Shown: positions 3,067 to 9,681 of the stretch, piece after piece
Numbering within the stretch: the stretch's first letter is position 1
How the letters are laid out: each line of letters starts with the position of its first letter
Assembly (NCBI GenBank): GCA_003241845.1
Contig: QBMN01000019.1
Coordinates: 1 to 37,735, forward strand
Source of the DNA: Shackletoniella antarctica
GTDB taxonomy: Bacteria; Cyanobacteriota; Cyanobacteriia; Phormidesmidales; Phormidesmidaceae
Reading direction: 5' to 3'
DNA length: 37,735 nt
Translations under genes and position numbers: made by a program
Notes under the pieces: model-generated
What the model was told of the DNA's origin: nothing
The model's database searches: none
The model's input: only the letters and a program-made list of their open reading frames with translations

Positions 3067-3891
3067 ATGCCCCACTGGTTCGACGGCACCTACTTTCCCG
3101 GTGACGACCTCACCCTGTCCACCAACGACCCGGCCCTACTCTACGGCGCGACAGTGTTTACCACCCTGCAGGTCTACGGCAATAATCTCGATCATCCCCT
3201 GACCCACTGGGCGGCCCACCAAAATCGCCTGACCCAGGCTCTAGGAGACTTTAGCTGGCCCCAGCCCAACTGGGTTCAGGTGCGGCAGGGGGCCGCAGCC
3301 GTGATGGCAGACTACCCCGTGGTGAGAATTACCTGCTTTCCCGATGGCCGTGAACTGGTGACCGGACGCCACCTATCGCCGGAGCTAGACCAGATGCAAG
3401 CCCAGGGAATTGCGGTGTGGATAGCTAAGGGCGAACTATACCAGCGATCGCACCCCGGCTACAAAACCGGCAACTACCTGGGGGCCTGGCTCGCCCTACA
3501 GGCCGCCCAAAATCACAGCGCTAAAGAAGCCATTCTGACCGACTCTCAGGGGCAGTGGTTAGAAACTAGCACCGGCAACCTTTGGGGCTGGGCTGTGGGC
3601 CAGTGGCATACCCCCGCGTTGGGGGCTGGTCTGCTGCCGGGGGTGACCCGCCTGCACCTGGTGCATTACCTGAGTCAGCGGGGCCAGCCGATCCGAGAAG
3701 ACCCCTGGCCCGCCGCCATGATCCAAACCTTTGAGGCCCTGGCCTACAGCAACTCAGGGGTGCAGGTGGTGCCGATTCACACAGTTCTAGGCGATCGCAG
3801 TAGACTGGAGTTTGACCCCAAGCACCCTGCCCTAGAGGTTTTGCAGGCTGCATTCAGGGAAAATCAGCCGCCAGTTCCGGCATCTCATTAG
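3067..3891 (+). CDS. pabC: Class IV aminotransferase, probable 4-amino-4-deoxychorismate lyase
   Basis: A PLP-dependent fold-type IV enzyme. The cyanobacterial branch of this family is usually annotated as aminodeoxychorismate lyase, which releases pyruvate to give p-aminobenzoate for folate. Visible signatures are the Lys133 Schiff-base candidate in GYKTGNYLGAW, the acceptor-loop ETSTGNLW and the downstream LPGVTR segment, all in the expected order. The length of 274 residues is typical. Branched-chain or D-amino-acid aminotransferase activity cannot be excluded because these share the fold, so the symbol is tentative. The gene ends 143 bases before ftsH and is probably transcribed separately from it. 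Confidence 0.8.
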   Translation: MPHWFDGTYFPGDDLTLSTNDPALLYGATVFTTLQVYGNNLDHPLTHWAAHQNRLTQALGDFSWPQPNWVQVRQGAAAVMADYPVVRITCFPDGRELVTGRHLSPELDQMQAQGIAVWIAKGELYQRSHPGYKTGNYLGAWLALQAAQNHSAKEAILTDSQGQWLETSTGNLWGWAVGQWHTPALGAGLLPGVTRLHLVHYLSQRGQPIREDPWPAAMIQTFEALAYSNSGVQVVPIHTVLGDRSRLEFDPKHPALEVLQAAFRENQPPVPASH

Positions 3892-6097: not shown

Positions 6098-6580
6098 TTA
6101 GCGGCTACTCCAGGGCTTGAGGCAGCGGGGGTCTGGCAGGGTTGATTTCTCAGGCTCGCGGGGAAACCAGAAGGCAGTGCGCTTGCAAAGCTCCACCAGC
6201 ATCAGCATGACGGGCACTTCGATCAGGACACCGACCACCGTGGCTAACGCCGCACCGGAGTTGAGGCCAAAGAGGGTGACGGCGGTGGCGATCGCCACCT
6301 CGAAGTGGTTACTGGCCCCAGTCAGCGCCGCCGGGGCCGCATCTTCGTAGGCCAGGCCCAGCTTTTGCCTCGCCACGTAGGAGATTAGAAAAATAAAGTT
6401 GGTCTGAATAATCTGAATAAACAGCGGCACCGCAATTAGCAGAATGTGAAACGGGCTGCGCACAATCAGGTTGCCCTTGAAGGCAAACAGCAGCACCAGG
6501 GTGGTGAGCAGGGCGATCGTGGCCACCGGGCTGAGGTATTTAAGAAACACCTGCTCAAACCAGGCTTTGCCCCTGTTTCT
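6098..6580 (-). pseudogene. 3' fragment of an ACR3-family arsenite efflux transporter
   Basis: The minus-strand frame encodes the C-terminal half of an ACR3-type membrane carrier. It begins at [18 protein letters not shown] and keeps the hallmark segments [26 protein letters not shown] and a final helix ending VELCKR. The N-terminal half with its five or so helices is missing. Upstream of Asn at about 6577 the translation stops resembling the family and reads antisense through a phosphatase gene. The frame is open to 6712, but those residues are the complement of the phosphatase HCX5R region. A start and full transporter function are therefore unlikely. The break lies near 6575-6590, at the same point where the facing phosphatase fragment begins. 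Confidence 0.85.
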
Positions 6581-6851
6581 CAGAATCCATGATGACGAAC
6601 TGCCCACGTCTCTAGAAACCTTTACGGCCCTGGTCGATCGCATTTTGGTGGCCACAGCGGCGGGAGAAACCGTGGCGGTGCACTGCCGGGGCGGTACCGG
6701 GCGCACGGGCACAGTGGTGGCAGCCTGCCTGGTGAAGCTGGGCTACAGCGCTGAAGATGCGATCGCCGCCGTGCAGCAGGTGCGATCGGGTGCTCTGGGC
6801 GTCGCCTCCCAGCGAGACTTTATCCATCGCTTTGATGCGGCCCAAACTTAA
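6581..6851 (+). pseudogene. 3' fragment of a dual-specificity/CDKN3-like protein phosphatase
   Basis: The plus-strand frame encodes the C-terminal half of a cysteine phosphatase: [13 protein letters not shown] (resembling a general-acid loop), then [17 protein letters not shown], an intact HCX5R phosphate-binding loop, and a helical tail to a stop at 6851. Residues before about 6581 are the antisense of the ACR3 fragment, so the N-terminal half is lost. An ATG at 6471 keeps the frame open, so a chimeric peptide could be made, but it would lack the N-terminal half of the fold. A strong hairpin follows the stop directly. Confidence 0.8.
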
Positions 6852-6881
6852 AAACCGCAAAGGCTTGAGCCTTTGCGGTTT
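6852..6881. terminator. Bidirectional hairpin terminator
   Basis: Arms AAACCGCAAAGGC (6852-6864) and GCCTTTGCGGTTT (6869-6881) enclose the 4-base loop TTGA. On the minus strand it is followed by a T-rich run, so it best serves as the end of the thrC/sulfur-carrier unit. On the plus strand it also follows the phosphatase fragment. Confidence 0.88.
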
Positions 6882-6923
6882 CTAGATGCGATCTGGGCCA
6901 GTCTAATCACGCGGCAAAGTGCC

Positions 6924-7199
6924 TCAGCCCCCAGCGACAGCGGGCACAATACTGACCTCGTCCCCATCGCCGAGGGCGGTGTCTTTGCCGTCAAGGAAGC
7001 GGATATCTTCGCTGTTGACGTAGAAATTGATGAAGCGACGCAGTTCGCCAGTGTCATCGCAGAGCCGGGCTTTAATGCCGGGGTAGCTAGTTTCTAAAGC
7101 ATCTAGCAGTTCGATAATGTTGCCGCCACCGCATTCAATGGTGGCCTGATCTTTGGTGAACTTTTGCAGCGGGGTGGGAATGAGTACTTTTACAGCCAT
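6924..7199 (-). CDS. CysO/MoaD/ThiS-type sulfur-carrier protein
   Basis: A 91-residue ubiquitin-like protein ending in AVAGG, the di-glycine tail that is adenylated and converted to a thiocarboxylate in sulfur carriers. The internal pattern (IPTPL near the start, [35 protein letters not shown]) is closer to what I recall of mycobacterial CysO, the carrier for the O-phosphoserine sulfhydrylase CysM, than to molybdopterin MoaD. It lies 119 bases downstream of thrC on the same strand and is followed by a strong terminator, so the two probably form one unit. ThrC belongs to the same PLP fold type as CysM. The activating E1-like enzyme is not in the window. Family is firm; the partner is inference. 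Confidence 0.88.
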
Positions 7200-7252
7200 A
7201 GCAGTGAGTAACGTGAATTTAAAAAACTAGGGACTGGAGGGTACAGAGTTTG

Positions 7253-7311
7253 CGGTTTACGGTAAAAGGTTTAAGGGTAAGAACCCGCCTTGAGCCTTAC
7301 ACCGTAAACCG
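7253..7311. repeat. 11-base inverted repeat between thrC and the sulfur carrier
   Basis: CGGTTTACGGT (7253-7263) and ACCGTAAACCG (7301-7311) are perfect arms enclosing a 37-base loop that contains further ACCGT/GGTAA-like pieces. There is no T-run. It could be an intergenic repeat, an mRNA-stabilising hairpin or an attenuating structure within the unit. Confidence 0.6.
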
Positions 7312-7318
7312 TGAACCT

Positions 7319-8623
7319 CTAAACAGACACCGGCTGCCACTCTAGGCGACCCAGCGTGCGGGAGCGCTCTAGGGCGCGCTCAAAGCTGTCCAGCTTAGGC
7401 TCGATGGTGAATGGCTCGCCAATGTAGCCCTGGATCGCTTCTTGGGTCTTGAGTCCGTTGCCGGTAATGTAGACCACTGTTGACTCATCGGGATTGATTT
7501 TACCGGCTTCCACCAGCTTTTTGAGCACCGCGATGGTGGTACCGCCAGCGGTTTCGGTAAAGATGCCTTCGGTTTCAGCCAGCAGCTTCATGCCCGCAAT
7601 GATCTCGGCATCGGTGACGTCTTCAATATTGCCGTTGGTCTTGCGGGCAATGTCGAGGGCGTAGATGCCGTCAGCGGGGTTGCCGATGGCAATCGATTTG
7701 GCGATGGTGTTGGGCTTCACCGGGGTGACAAAGTCGCGGCCTGCTTTAAAAGCCTGGGAAATGGGGGAGCAGCCCTCGGCCTGGGCACCGCTGAAGCGCA
7801 CGGGCTTGTCGTCGACTAAGCCCACCTTCACAAATTCTTGGAAGCCCTTGTAGATCTTAGTAAATAGCGAACCCGAGGCCAGGGGAGCGACGATGTGGTC
7901 GGGCAAGCGCCAGCCCAGCTGCTCGGCCACTTCGTAGCCCAGAGTCTTTGACCCCTCAGAATAGTAGGGGCGCAGGTTGATATTCACAAATCCCCAGCCC
8001 TGGGTGTTGGCCACCTCAGAGCACAGGCGGTTGACCTGGTCATAGTTGCCCTGCACCGCCATCACCGTGGGGTTGTAGATCAAGGTGCCCAGTATTTTAC
8101 CGGCTTCCAAATCAGCGGGGATGAAGACGCAGCAGTCGAGGCCAGCATGGGCGGCGATCGCCGCCGTAGAGTTGGCCAAATTACCTGTGCTCGCGCAGGA
8201 AACTGTCGTAAAGCCCAGCTCGCGCGCCCGGGTCAGGGCCACCGACACCACCCGATCTTTAAAGCTCAGGGTGGGCATGTTGACGGCATCGTTCTTTATA
8301 TAGAGTTCTTTGAGACCCAGCTGCCGCGCCAGGCGGTTGGCCCGCACCAAAGGCGTCATCCCCGTGCCGACATCAATGGGGTTTTCGCCAGTGACCGGGA
8401 GAAAGTCTTTGTAGCGCCAGATCGACAGCGGCCCCGCCTGAATCGTCTCGCGGCTAACCCGCTGGCGAATCGCGTCGTAGTCATAGGCCACTTCTAGGGG
8501 GCCAAAACACACGTCTTCGCACACGTGCTTGGGGCCTAGGTCATAGGTTGCACCGCACTCTCGGCACTTGAGCGCTGAGAACGTCGGCGTGGTGGCGATG
8601 GAGCGTTCGAGGGACTGCGTCAT
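7319..8623 (-). CDS. thrC: Threonine synthase
   Basis: A PLP enzyme that converts O-phospho-L-homoserine to threonine. The ATG at 8623 (MTQSLERSIATTPTF) is preferred over upstream in-frame starts because the conserved domain begins soon after it and upstream residues look non-coding. A CRECGATYDLGP...C zinc-ribbon-like N-terminus leads into the fold-type II core: TPLVRANRLA, the Schiff-base Lys in TLSFKDR, the STGNLANS phosphate/PLP loop and the ITGNGLKT loop near the C-terminus. The length of 434 residues is normal. A TTGACC box (8731-8736, minus strand) suggests a promoter directly beside the 25-bp palindrome at 8739-8763. The CysO-like gene follows on the same strand. Confidence 0.95.
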   Translation of the reverse strand: MTQSLERSIATTPTFSALKCRECGATYDLGPKHVCEDVCFGPLEVAYDYDAIRQRVSRETIQAGPLSIWRYKDFLPVTGENPIDVGTGMTPLVRANRLARQLGLKELYIKNDAVNMPTLSFKDRVVSVALTRARELGFTTVSCASTGNLANSTAAIAAHAGLDCCVFIPADLEAGKILGTLIYNPTVMAVQGNYDQVNRLCSEVANTQGWGFVNINLRPYYSEGSKTLGYEVAEQLGWRLPDHIVAPLASGSLFTKIYKGFQEFVKVGLVDDKPVRFSGAQAEGCSPISQAFKAGRDFVTPVKPNTIAKSIAIGNPADGIYALDIARKTNGNIEDVTDAEIIAGMKLLAETEGIFTETAGGTTIAVLKKLVEAGKINPDESTVVYITGNGLKTQEAIQGYIGEPFTIEPKLDSFERALERSRTLGRLEWQPVSV

Positions 8624-8738
8624 GGCGTTTTCTCTAGGTTCTCTTTCTCGGCGGTTTTTGGGCGGCTGATGAATTAGCTGGCAAATTAATCGACTGTGTG
8701 AATAAGAACGTAGCACTAGTAACAATACCGGGTCAAAT

Positions 8739-8763
8739 ATACCCGACTATTTTAGTCGGGTAT
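8739..8763. promoter_or_regulatory. Perfect palindrome matching the IscR type-1 (Rrf2 family) operator
   Basis: Ten-base arms ATACCCGACT and AGTCGGGTAT flank five A/T bases, and the symmetry extends one base further on each side. Every position agrees with the published E. coli IscR type-1 consensus as I remember it. It lies 115 bases upstream of the thrC start and 2 bases outside a TTGACC -35-like box on the minus strand, and about 246 bases before ntcA. It is most likely the binding site of an Rrf2-type Fe-S or sulfur-responsive regulator controlling thrC and the sulfur carrier. No Rrf2 gene is in the window. Confidence 0.75.
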
Positions 8764-8800
8764 AAGTCAAGGCCATAATTTCAGCTCATAGCGCAACAAA

Positions 8801-8843
8801 GTAGTGTGTTATACAAACTCTCCCCTGGCAGTTGGGGTTAAGT
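8801..8843 (+). promoter_or_regulatory. NtcA-activated promoter of ntcA
   Basis: A perfect GTA-N8-TAC NtcA box occupies 8801-8814. The -10-like TTAAGT at 8838-8843 starts 23 bases after it, close to the usual 22-base spacing of class II NtcA-dependent promoters. Autoregulation of ntcA is known in other cyanobacteria, so the site is likely functional. The leader would be about 160 bases. Confidence 0.75.
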
Positions 8844-9009
8844 GATTTAAAGTCATGGAACGTTTGCATTATCCGATGTGCCGGACTGCTAAAACTGCTC
8901 TATGCTTGACGCCCAATAGCGTCCCACATCATCGGCTTAGCCAGGGGTGTAGGTTCGCAGTCAGGCAGTGCAGTGCATGTTGTTTCTGTGATGCTCTTAG
9001 CAGAACGTT

Positions 9010-9681
9010 ATGGTAGTGACCCAAGATAAGCCCCTCGCCAATGTCTTTCGTCAGCTGTCTGGGGGAGCCTTTCCTCCGGTGGTTGAGTCCTACGAGCGGG
9101 GTAAGACAATTTTCTTCCCCGGTGACCCGGCGGAACGGGTCTACTTTTTGCTCAAAGGGGCCGTCAAGCTGTCGCGGGTCTACGAGGCCGGAGAAGAAAT
9201 TACCGTGGCCCTGCTGCGCGAAAACAGCGTCTTTGGGGTGCTGTCGCTGATTACCGGCAATCGGTCTGATCGCTTTTATCACTCCGTTGCCTTTACGCCG
9301 GTAGAGCTGCTGTCGGTGCCAATCGAGCAGGTCGAGCAGGCTTTAGAAGAAAATCCAGAGCTAGCCCTGCTGATGCTGCGCGGCCTGTCATCGCGCATCT
9401 TGCAAACTGAAATGATGATTGAGACCCTGGCCCACCGCGACATGGGGTCGAGACTGGTGAGTTTTTTGCTGATTCTCTGCCGCGACTTTGGGGTGCCTAG
9501 CCAAGATGGCATCACCATTGACCTGAAGCTATCTCACCAGGCGATCGCCGAGGCCATCGGCTCGACCCGCGTCACCGTGACCCGGCTGCTGGGCGATCTG
9601 CGCCAGGAGGGCATGATCTCCATCTATAAAAAGAAAATTACCGTGCACGACCCGGTCAACCTGAGCCAGCAGTTTACCTAG
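9010..9681 (+). CDS. ntcA: Global nitrogen regulator NtcA
   Basis: A CRP-family activator that binds 2-oxoglutarate and controls nitrogen assimilation. The N-terminal effector-binding beta barrel (about residues 20-120) contains [20 protein letters not shown] and GEEITVALL, and the long dimer helix is [17 protein letters not shown]. The C-terminal helix-turn-helix (about 168-205) carries [21 protein letters not shown]. The 223-residue length and sequence match known NtcA proteins closely. A GTA-N8-TAC site lies about 200 bases upstream. The DUF3084 gene downstream is 130 bases away. Confidence 0.97.

Follow-up and report, generated by a model that had tools for sequence, protein, structure and literature searches.

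Why should a gene annotated as threonine synthase (thrC) be followed, in the cyanobacterium Shackletoniella antarctica, by a gene for a ubiquitin-like sulfur carrier? Related partnerships are known from other bacteria: in the cysteine synthesis of mycobacteria (CysM/CysO/Mec+) a fold-type II PLP enzyme works together with a carrier, and the methionine synthesis of Wolinella makes use of a protein thiocarboxylate, with HcyS and MetY. In a further system thiocarboxylated MetO is reportedly the sulfur donor for the enzyme MetM. According to the sections of Kim et al. (2025; PMC12172450) covered here, Hasebe et al. (2024; doi 10.1128/aem.01247-24) described MetM of Streptomyces, a homocysteine synthase that acts on O-phosphohomoserine, together with its companion gene metO, an upstream SAM riboswitch and cyanobacterial homologues. 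A protein thiocarboxylate pathway is also mentioned in the portion of PMC5764234 considered here, and for Synechocystis a review from 2020 called the homocysteine-forming steps before MetH undetermined (PMC7133116, in the part available).

Organization of the locus

The window, i.e. the whole stretch of 37,735 nt analyzed here, encodes the gene pair on the minus strand, as read from its open reading frames. The metM-like gene, annotated as thrC type (7319..8623, minus strand), codes for a 434-aa fold-type II PLP enzyme when read from a conserved ATG; a second in-frame start, a TTG, lies 102 bases upstream of this ATG. The protein contains an N-terminal CxxC...C stretch, which we take to be zinc-ribbon-like, and an SFKDR motif, presumably the catalytic one. 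After a spacer of 119 bp (7200..7318, minus strand) follows the metO-like gene (6924..7199, minus strand), which starts with ATG and encodes a 91-aa ubiquitin-fold sulfur carrier with the C-terminus VPAVAGG, so that a carrier ending in GG lies directly downstream of the MetM-like gene. A hairpin terminator 3' of metO (6849..6884, minus strand) consists of a 16-bp stem and a UCAA loop, and its U tract is located partly in the stem, which is probably the reason why a simple terminator scan did not call it. Folding of the stretch 6835–6895 (minus strand) yielded −25.3 kcal/mol and the 16-bp stem in the centroid structure, with a z-score of −4.8 and 0 of 200 shuffles as good. These data confirm the layout given in a first-pass annotation of the sequence, namely thrC, a gap of 119 bases, a 91-residue carrier ending in AVAGG and then a terminator. 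The same annotation let the unit end at position 8764, which is the end of an inverted repeat (8738–8764) upstream of the metM-like gene.

Beyond the terminator, the ACR3 arsenite efflux model is hit below its cut-off by a 204-aa frame (6098-6712, minus strand), and the match is confined to the C-terminal end of the model (195-326 of 327). The 204-aa frame overlaps a phosphatase-like frame on the opposite strand (6471-6851, plus strand; judged by eye) and has the appearance of a gene that was truncated or rearranged.

Distribution of the gene pair in cyanobacteria

Both genes were followed in a first sample that covered 79 genomes from the phylum, with 31 from the class of the window, and in a second sample of 26 more class genomes, giving 57 class genomes in total. 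In the first sample 30 of the 31 class genomes carry both genes (MetM with at least 82% identity), adjacent within about 500 bases in 29 of them; metM and metO are 18 kb apart in G076, and neither gene is present in G051. Among the 48 genomes outside the class no MetM match exceeded 41% identity, and a weak carrier match occurred in one. The pair is adjacent within about 670 bases in 23 of the 26 genomes of the second sample, three of these from partial genes only (G084, G097, G103); it is cut off at a contig end in G092, and G091 and G095 are without both genes. For the 57 class genomes this means that the pair is adjacent in 52, separated in one, cut off in one and missing with both genes in three. 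The adjacency of thrC and carrier is therefore a class-wide feature and no peculiarity of this strain, a possibility that the first-pass annotation had raised. Downstream of the metM-metO region of G070 a glutamine riboswitch (RF01739, 57 bits) was detected at 3802-3875 of locus L016.

Relationship of the enzyme to MetM and to canonical threonine synthases

In profile searches the best models for the window enzyme are threonine synthases and not cysteine synthases, and it passes the threonine synthase model TIGR00260 with 344.6 bits (cut-off 167.1). The S. antarctica genome encodes a second, canonical-looking ThrC-like protein of 377 aa on contig C155, which is 36% identical to the window enzyme. 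Of the 29 other class genomes of the first sample that bear MetM, 28 likewise show a second ThrC-like match, with at least 160 bits (exception: G048). With MetM of Nonomuraea gerenzanensis the window enzyme shares 58% identity. A tree of 45 rows, comprising 20 of the 51 cyanobacterial MetM, 21 actinobacterial MetM and only 4 ThrC2, split MetM, including the window and the actinobacterial proteins, from the four cyanobacterial ThrC2 at 100/100. L149, R218, Y221 and ASGS249-252 are found in 72 of 72 MetM; at the same positions all 4 ThrC2 have T, N, R and GNAG. By identity and tree the window enzyme is thus distinct from the other ThrC of its genome; it neither groups with that protein nor keeps the ThrC2 residues, as judged with four ThrC2 rows. 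In the midpoint-rooted tree the actinobacterial rows join beside the genus of the window, inside the cyanobacterial rows, for which transfer and artefact are both possible explanations. The N-terminal zinc-ribbon cysteines are replaced in the cyanobacterial MetM of L015, L016, L028, L031 and L032, with SKEGG for CKECG.

Gene order points in the same direction as the tree. The window resembles the MetM/MetO locus of Streptomyces albulus in that a ThrC-like PLP enzyme is followed by a sulfur carrier; the actinobacterial sequences used for tree and gene order come from Nonomuraea and other actinobacteria and not from S. albulus itself. The Nonomuraea gerenzanensis operon contains a SAM riboswitch, MetM and MetO in a row, and in 80 of 80 actinobacterial loci the carrier lies directly downstream of MetM on the same strand. 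One or two residues follow the GG in 15 of these 80 carriers, and residue(s) after GG occur in one cyanobacterial carrier (G054). All 20 actinobacterial loci tested (of the 80), as well as the Nonomuraea locus L110, have a SAM riboswitch upstream of metM, which assigns the actinobacterial metM-metO operon to the methionine regulon there. A SAM riboswitch was found neither in the window nor in 17 cyanobacterial metM loci.

The sulfur carrier and its candidate charging enzymes

The window carrier matches the Pfam family ThiS at 64.4 bits (cut-off 22.5) and is therefore not a chance ORF. Its best NCBIfam matches are SAMP1 and moaD_arch, both slightly under the cut-off, and TIGR01682 (moaD) is absent among its profile matches. 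Identity amounts to 47.8% with each of two solved CysO proteins and to 46–47% with three actinobacterial MetO (46% with that of Nonomuraea gerenzanensis); together with the 58% identity of the enzyme and the MetM tree, this indicates orthology of the pair to actinobacterial MetM and MetO. Two other carriers are encoded in the S. antarctica genome, a MoaD-like one on C273, whose best match is TIGR01682 with 54 bits (below the 66-bit cut-off), and a ThiS on C55, located after a thiE-like frame (thiE by eye). The window carrier shares only 27.8% and 25% identity with these two, respectively, and given these separate carriers a MoaD or ThiS identity is disfavoured. Clustering with MoaD, which the first-pass annotation had named as the outcome contrary to its proposal, was not observed, as the window carrier does not group with the MoaD-like carrier of the genome. 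As to the CysO-like character suggested by the same annotation, the carrier is closer to CysO than to the MoaD-like protein and ThiS; the tree, with 91 columns, is poorly resolved and leaves MetO and CysO unseparated. Besides its metM-linked carrier, G082 has another copy about 180 kb away on the same contig (C23, 190919-191170), which shares 71% identity with the window carrier.

Regarding the E1 and JAMM partners that the first-pass annotation expected, a MoeB–rhodanese E1 (PRK07411, 778 bits, cut-off 633) and a JAMM gene adjoin on contig C259, separate from the contig of metM-metO. The genome thus encodes a candidate E1 for charging the carrier, MetO being a putative substrate. At the window locus itself the carrier is linked neither to CysM nor to JAMM (Mec+). 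JAMM was present in 16 of the 20 genomes tested; G014 and G070 gave no JAMM match and have the metM-metO pair, and G091 has JAMM without the pair. On these grounds JAMM is not supported as an obligate partner, and its gene distribution suggests that JAMM-mediated release is not obligatory. Locus L240 (G098 C1, 1626-3862) contains an operon-like run of a JAMM protease, a second carrier and a MoeB-rhodanese-like E1 (the E1 by eye); this carrier is 44% identical to the window carrier, ends in AGGL and lies apart from the metM-metO pair of G098. In G058 (C1, 1498396-1499934) the canonical ThrC2 match is followed, after about 190 bases and without a change of strand, by a JAMM match.

A conserved palindrome and putative promoter upstream of metM

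The inverted repeat at 8738..8764, which has no strand of its own, is a proposed operator of 27 bp with the sequence TATACCCGACTAAAATAGTCGGGTATA on the metM-sense strand, and the gene divergent from the pair across it is ntcA (TIGR03697 match). The inner 25 bp (8739-8763) fit the IscR type-1 consensus ATASYYGACTRWWWYAGTCRRSTAT, as printed in the part of PMC6599224 used here, with 0 mismatches, and no site with up to 3 mismatches to this pattern appeared in 100 shuffles of the window. When up to 2 mismatches to a 25-bp pattern are allowed, the whole S. antarctica genome contains a single site, and a repeat element was rejected for this reason. Right after the palindrome follows the inferred promoter of metM (8707..8736, minus strand), composed of TTGACC (−35), an 18-nt spacer and TACGTT (−10), although a plain sigma-70 consensus scan of 6700–9020 called no promoter.

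A comparison of 54 cyanobacterial metM loci, reduced to 53 by the exclusion of L105, in which the 5' end of the gene is missing, revealed a site within 3 mismatches of a 23-bp core in 52 of 53 loci (24 perfect, 16 with one, 10 with two and 2 with three mismatches) against 40 of 1080 shuffled controls. As the core was derived from the palindromes of the same loci, this count is not independent of the motif and the shuffles control for chance only. The arms of the sites are fixed, and between them lies an A/T-rich centre that occurs in both orientations. Past the site, a TAnnnT element is placed at 25 or 26 bases in 52 of 52 cases (any other offset in at most 9 of 52), and 48 of the 52 have TTGAC or TTGAT a few bases past the site, a 17- or 18-base spacer and TG before the −10 box. 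No site within 3 mismatches exists in L006; in the operator position of this locus (L006/L243, G036) stands a diverged palindrome, AGACTTTTTTAGTCT, before a similar TTGAAG ... TAACAT promoter, and the regulator may have co-evolved.

Since the −35 and −10 boxes are placed in a conserved manner right after it, the palindrome, which abuts the −35 box, is most simply interpreted as a DNA operator. A role as terminator or leader hairpin is disfavoured by its position upstream of the inferred −35, by the A/T centre in either orientation and by the divergent ntcA. The stem can fold as RNA, but folding of the whole upstream stretch is hardly better than that of shuffled sequences, with a z-score of −1.75 and 9 of 200 shuffles as good. 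The regulator is possibly of the Rrf2/IscR type; this family assignment is an inference because species differ in how well the site fits the IscR consensus, with 0 mismatches in one of the 52 sites, 1 in 4, 2 in 12, 3 in 14, 4 in 9 and 5 to 7 in 12. Unlike the window site, the remaining 51 sites therefore differ from the IscR type-1 site by 1 to 7 positions, and the predicted target of the putative binding protein is metM-metO and not isc genes. In Synechocystis, Slr0846 is listed as IscR (PMC7058544, in the part considered). A looser pattern, WACCCGA-N9-TCGGGTW with 1 mismatch, gave mostly background in 45 genomes, and a read-backwards control had equal or more matches in 35 of the 45, including S. 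antarctica (3 against 10). Among the places listed for 23 of these 45 genomes, 17 have a Y-W7-R centre (by eye), 16 of them beside metM and one elsewhere (G030 C39). Within a limited literature search, such a regulator or site upstream of metM apparently has not been in print.

Other routes to homocysteine

The MetB, MetY, MetZ and CGS routes require PF01053 enzymes. The S. antarctica genome contains no full-length PF01053 enzyme; there are 8 partial matches, the best with 31 bits over about one third of the model, and several of them (27 to 31 bits) pass the family cut-off and were taken for other PLP enzymes. Accordingly, no MetB/MetY/CGS route is visible in S. antarctica, and this distinguishes it from Wolinella, where the carrier thiocarboxylate likewise serves as sulfur source for homocysteine but is used by a PF01053 enzyme. 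A full-length PF01053 enzyme occurs, among the matches listed, in 9 of the 31 class genomes of the first sample, and in a tenth, G048, it is fragmented and contains a stop.

HcyBio (DUF39) forms homocysteine from aspartate semialdehyde in other organisms. According to the portion of PMC5764234 considered, Desulfovibrio and a methanogen depend on HcyBio for making homocysteine. It was detected in all 31 class genomes of the first sample and in 25 of the 26 of the second, i.e. in 56 of 57 with G095 as the only exception, and also in G051 and G091, which are without MetM/MetO. Therefore, MetM/MetO is not needed for homocysteine everywhere, and its distribution makes it probably one of two homocysteine routes and not the sole one. 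As G051 has neither the metM-metO pair nor a full-length PF01053 enzyme, its gene content suggests that HcyBio can suffice. The genome G095 (1.7 Mb, 100% complete) gave no match to MetM (besides ThrC2), MetO or HcyBio.

Discussion

We consider it likely that the window pair is the cyanobacterial MetM–MetO homocysteine synthase, with a catalysis predicted from orthology. The first-pass annotation had proposed that carrier-bound sulfur is passed to phosphohomoserine to give homocysteine. This core of the proposal agrees with the published Streptomyces MetM/MetO route, to which the pair is related as an orthologue by sequence, tree and gene order; the proposal as a whole is only partly supported, since the chemistry was already in print, the genome has a second ThrC-like gene and HcyBio is a second candidate homocysteine enzyme. 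MetM/MetO is hence not new in kind, and the window pair is its cyanobacterial member, for which no demonstration of homocysteine formation was found in the literature searched. Compared with Streptomyces, the cyanobacterial loci have a conserved palindromic operator-promoter in the place of the SAM riboswitch, HcyBio co-occurs in nearly all genomes sampled and the activity is a prediction from sequence.

In mechanistic terms, an E1, most likely the MoeB–rhodanese fusion on C259, would adenylate MetO at its C-terminal GG, after which the adenylated MetO would be converted to the thiocarboxylate by a sulfurtransferase. MetM would bind O-phosphohomoserine, eliminate phosphate and take sulfur from MetO-COSH instead of water, yielding homocysteine for methionine, and threonine would be made by the separate ThrC on C155. 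Transcription would start from the conserved promoter, the −35 box of which abuts a palindromic operator bound by a regulator possibly of the Rrf2/IscR type. What counts against the MetM–MetO reading is that TIGR00260 is well passed, that 56 of the 57 class genomes have HcyBio and that the carrier is equally similar to CysO and to actinobacterial MetO.

Expression and activity data are available for Microcystis, whose ThrC and carrier are like the window pair in lineage and arrangement as described in the covered sections of Kim et al. (2025; PMC12172450), from which the following Microcystis results are taken. With threonine, expression of thrC increases 10.5-fold and that of the adjoining carrier 6.8-fold, and thrC goes back to the control level when methionine is supplied together with threonine; this pattern is expected of a methionine-controlled operon and was counted in favour of MetM–MetO. 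We read the response as derepression of the methionine operon when threonine chokes the aspartate pathway. However, this expression argument is not specific, because threonine toxicity is relieved by alanine as well, which has a stronger effect than methionine in restoring many transcripts. Kim et al. read the protein, which we read as MetM, as a moonlighting threonine deaminase and called the link to the neighbouring carrier unclear; neither a carrier assay nor an operator is described in the sections covered. Applied to the window, a moonlighting threonine synthase/threonine deaminase with a carrier that is an incidental neighbour or serves something else seems rather unlikely to us. Both activities were measured in vitro for the Microcystis ThrC protein, methionine did not rise in threonine-treated cells, Na2S gave only an unassigned HPLC peak, and the window enzyme passes TIGR00260. 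But such a protein hardly accounts for a pair that is adjacent in 52 of 57 genomes and jointly missing in three, for the separate ThrC in S. antarctica and the further ThrC-like match (160 bits or more) in 28 of 29 additional first-sample class genomes with MetM, for the SAM riboswitch on the actinobacterial orthologues, for the MetM-specific replacement of residues kept by all 4 ThrC2 or for the reversal of the induction by methionine.

The carrier invites two further explanations. Its 47.8% identity to both solved CysO proteins and the JAMM gene in the genome would fit a route like that of mycobacterial CysM/CysO/Mec+, which shares with the window a fold-type II PLP enzyme and a CysO-like carrier ending in GG, and in which cysteine would be made from O-phosphoserine and released by the JAMM protease. 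We regard this as very improbable, as the partner enzyme belongs to another family, with threonine synthases and not cysteine synthases as best models, and the JAMM gene is unlinked, on another contig, and without a match in the pair-bearing G014 and G070. It is hardly credible that the carrier functions as MoaD in molybdopterin synthase, or as ThiS, and stands beside thrC by chance: membership of the Pfam ThiS family and the SAMP1 and moaD_arch matches slightly under the cut-off are compatible with it, but the genome has its own MoaD-like protein (54 bits with TIGR01682, under the cut-off) and a ThiS located behind thiE, to which the window carrier is only 27.8% and 25% identical, TIGR01682 is not among the matches of the window carrier and the pairing is class-wide.

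Going beyond the MetM–MetO assignment, we tentatively suggest, as an idea that may well prove wrong, that cyanobacteria run HcyBio and MetM/MetO, the latter starting from O-phosphohomoserine, side by side as routes to homocysteine, and that they have a dedicated Rrf2/IscR-like regulator of metM-metO, which would tie methionine synthesis to Fe–S or sulfur status and replace the actinobacterial SAM riboswitch. In such a two-route scheme the metM-metO promoter would be the only recurrent target of the regulator seen, with places listed for 23 of 45 genomes. The coexistence of MetM/MetO and HcyBio was not found in print within our limited literature search. The near-universal HcyBio would explain a possible lack of phenotype in a single knockout. 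Orthology, class-wide pairing and the conserved operator together give a definite and testable assignment for cyanobacterial metM-metO, and the operator provides a handle on methionine control in cyanobacteria.
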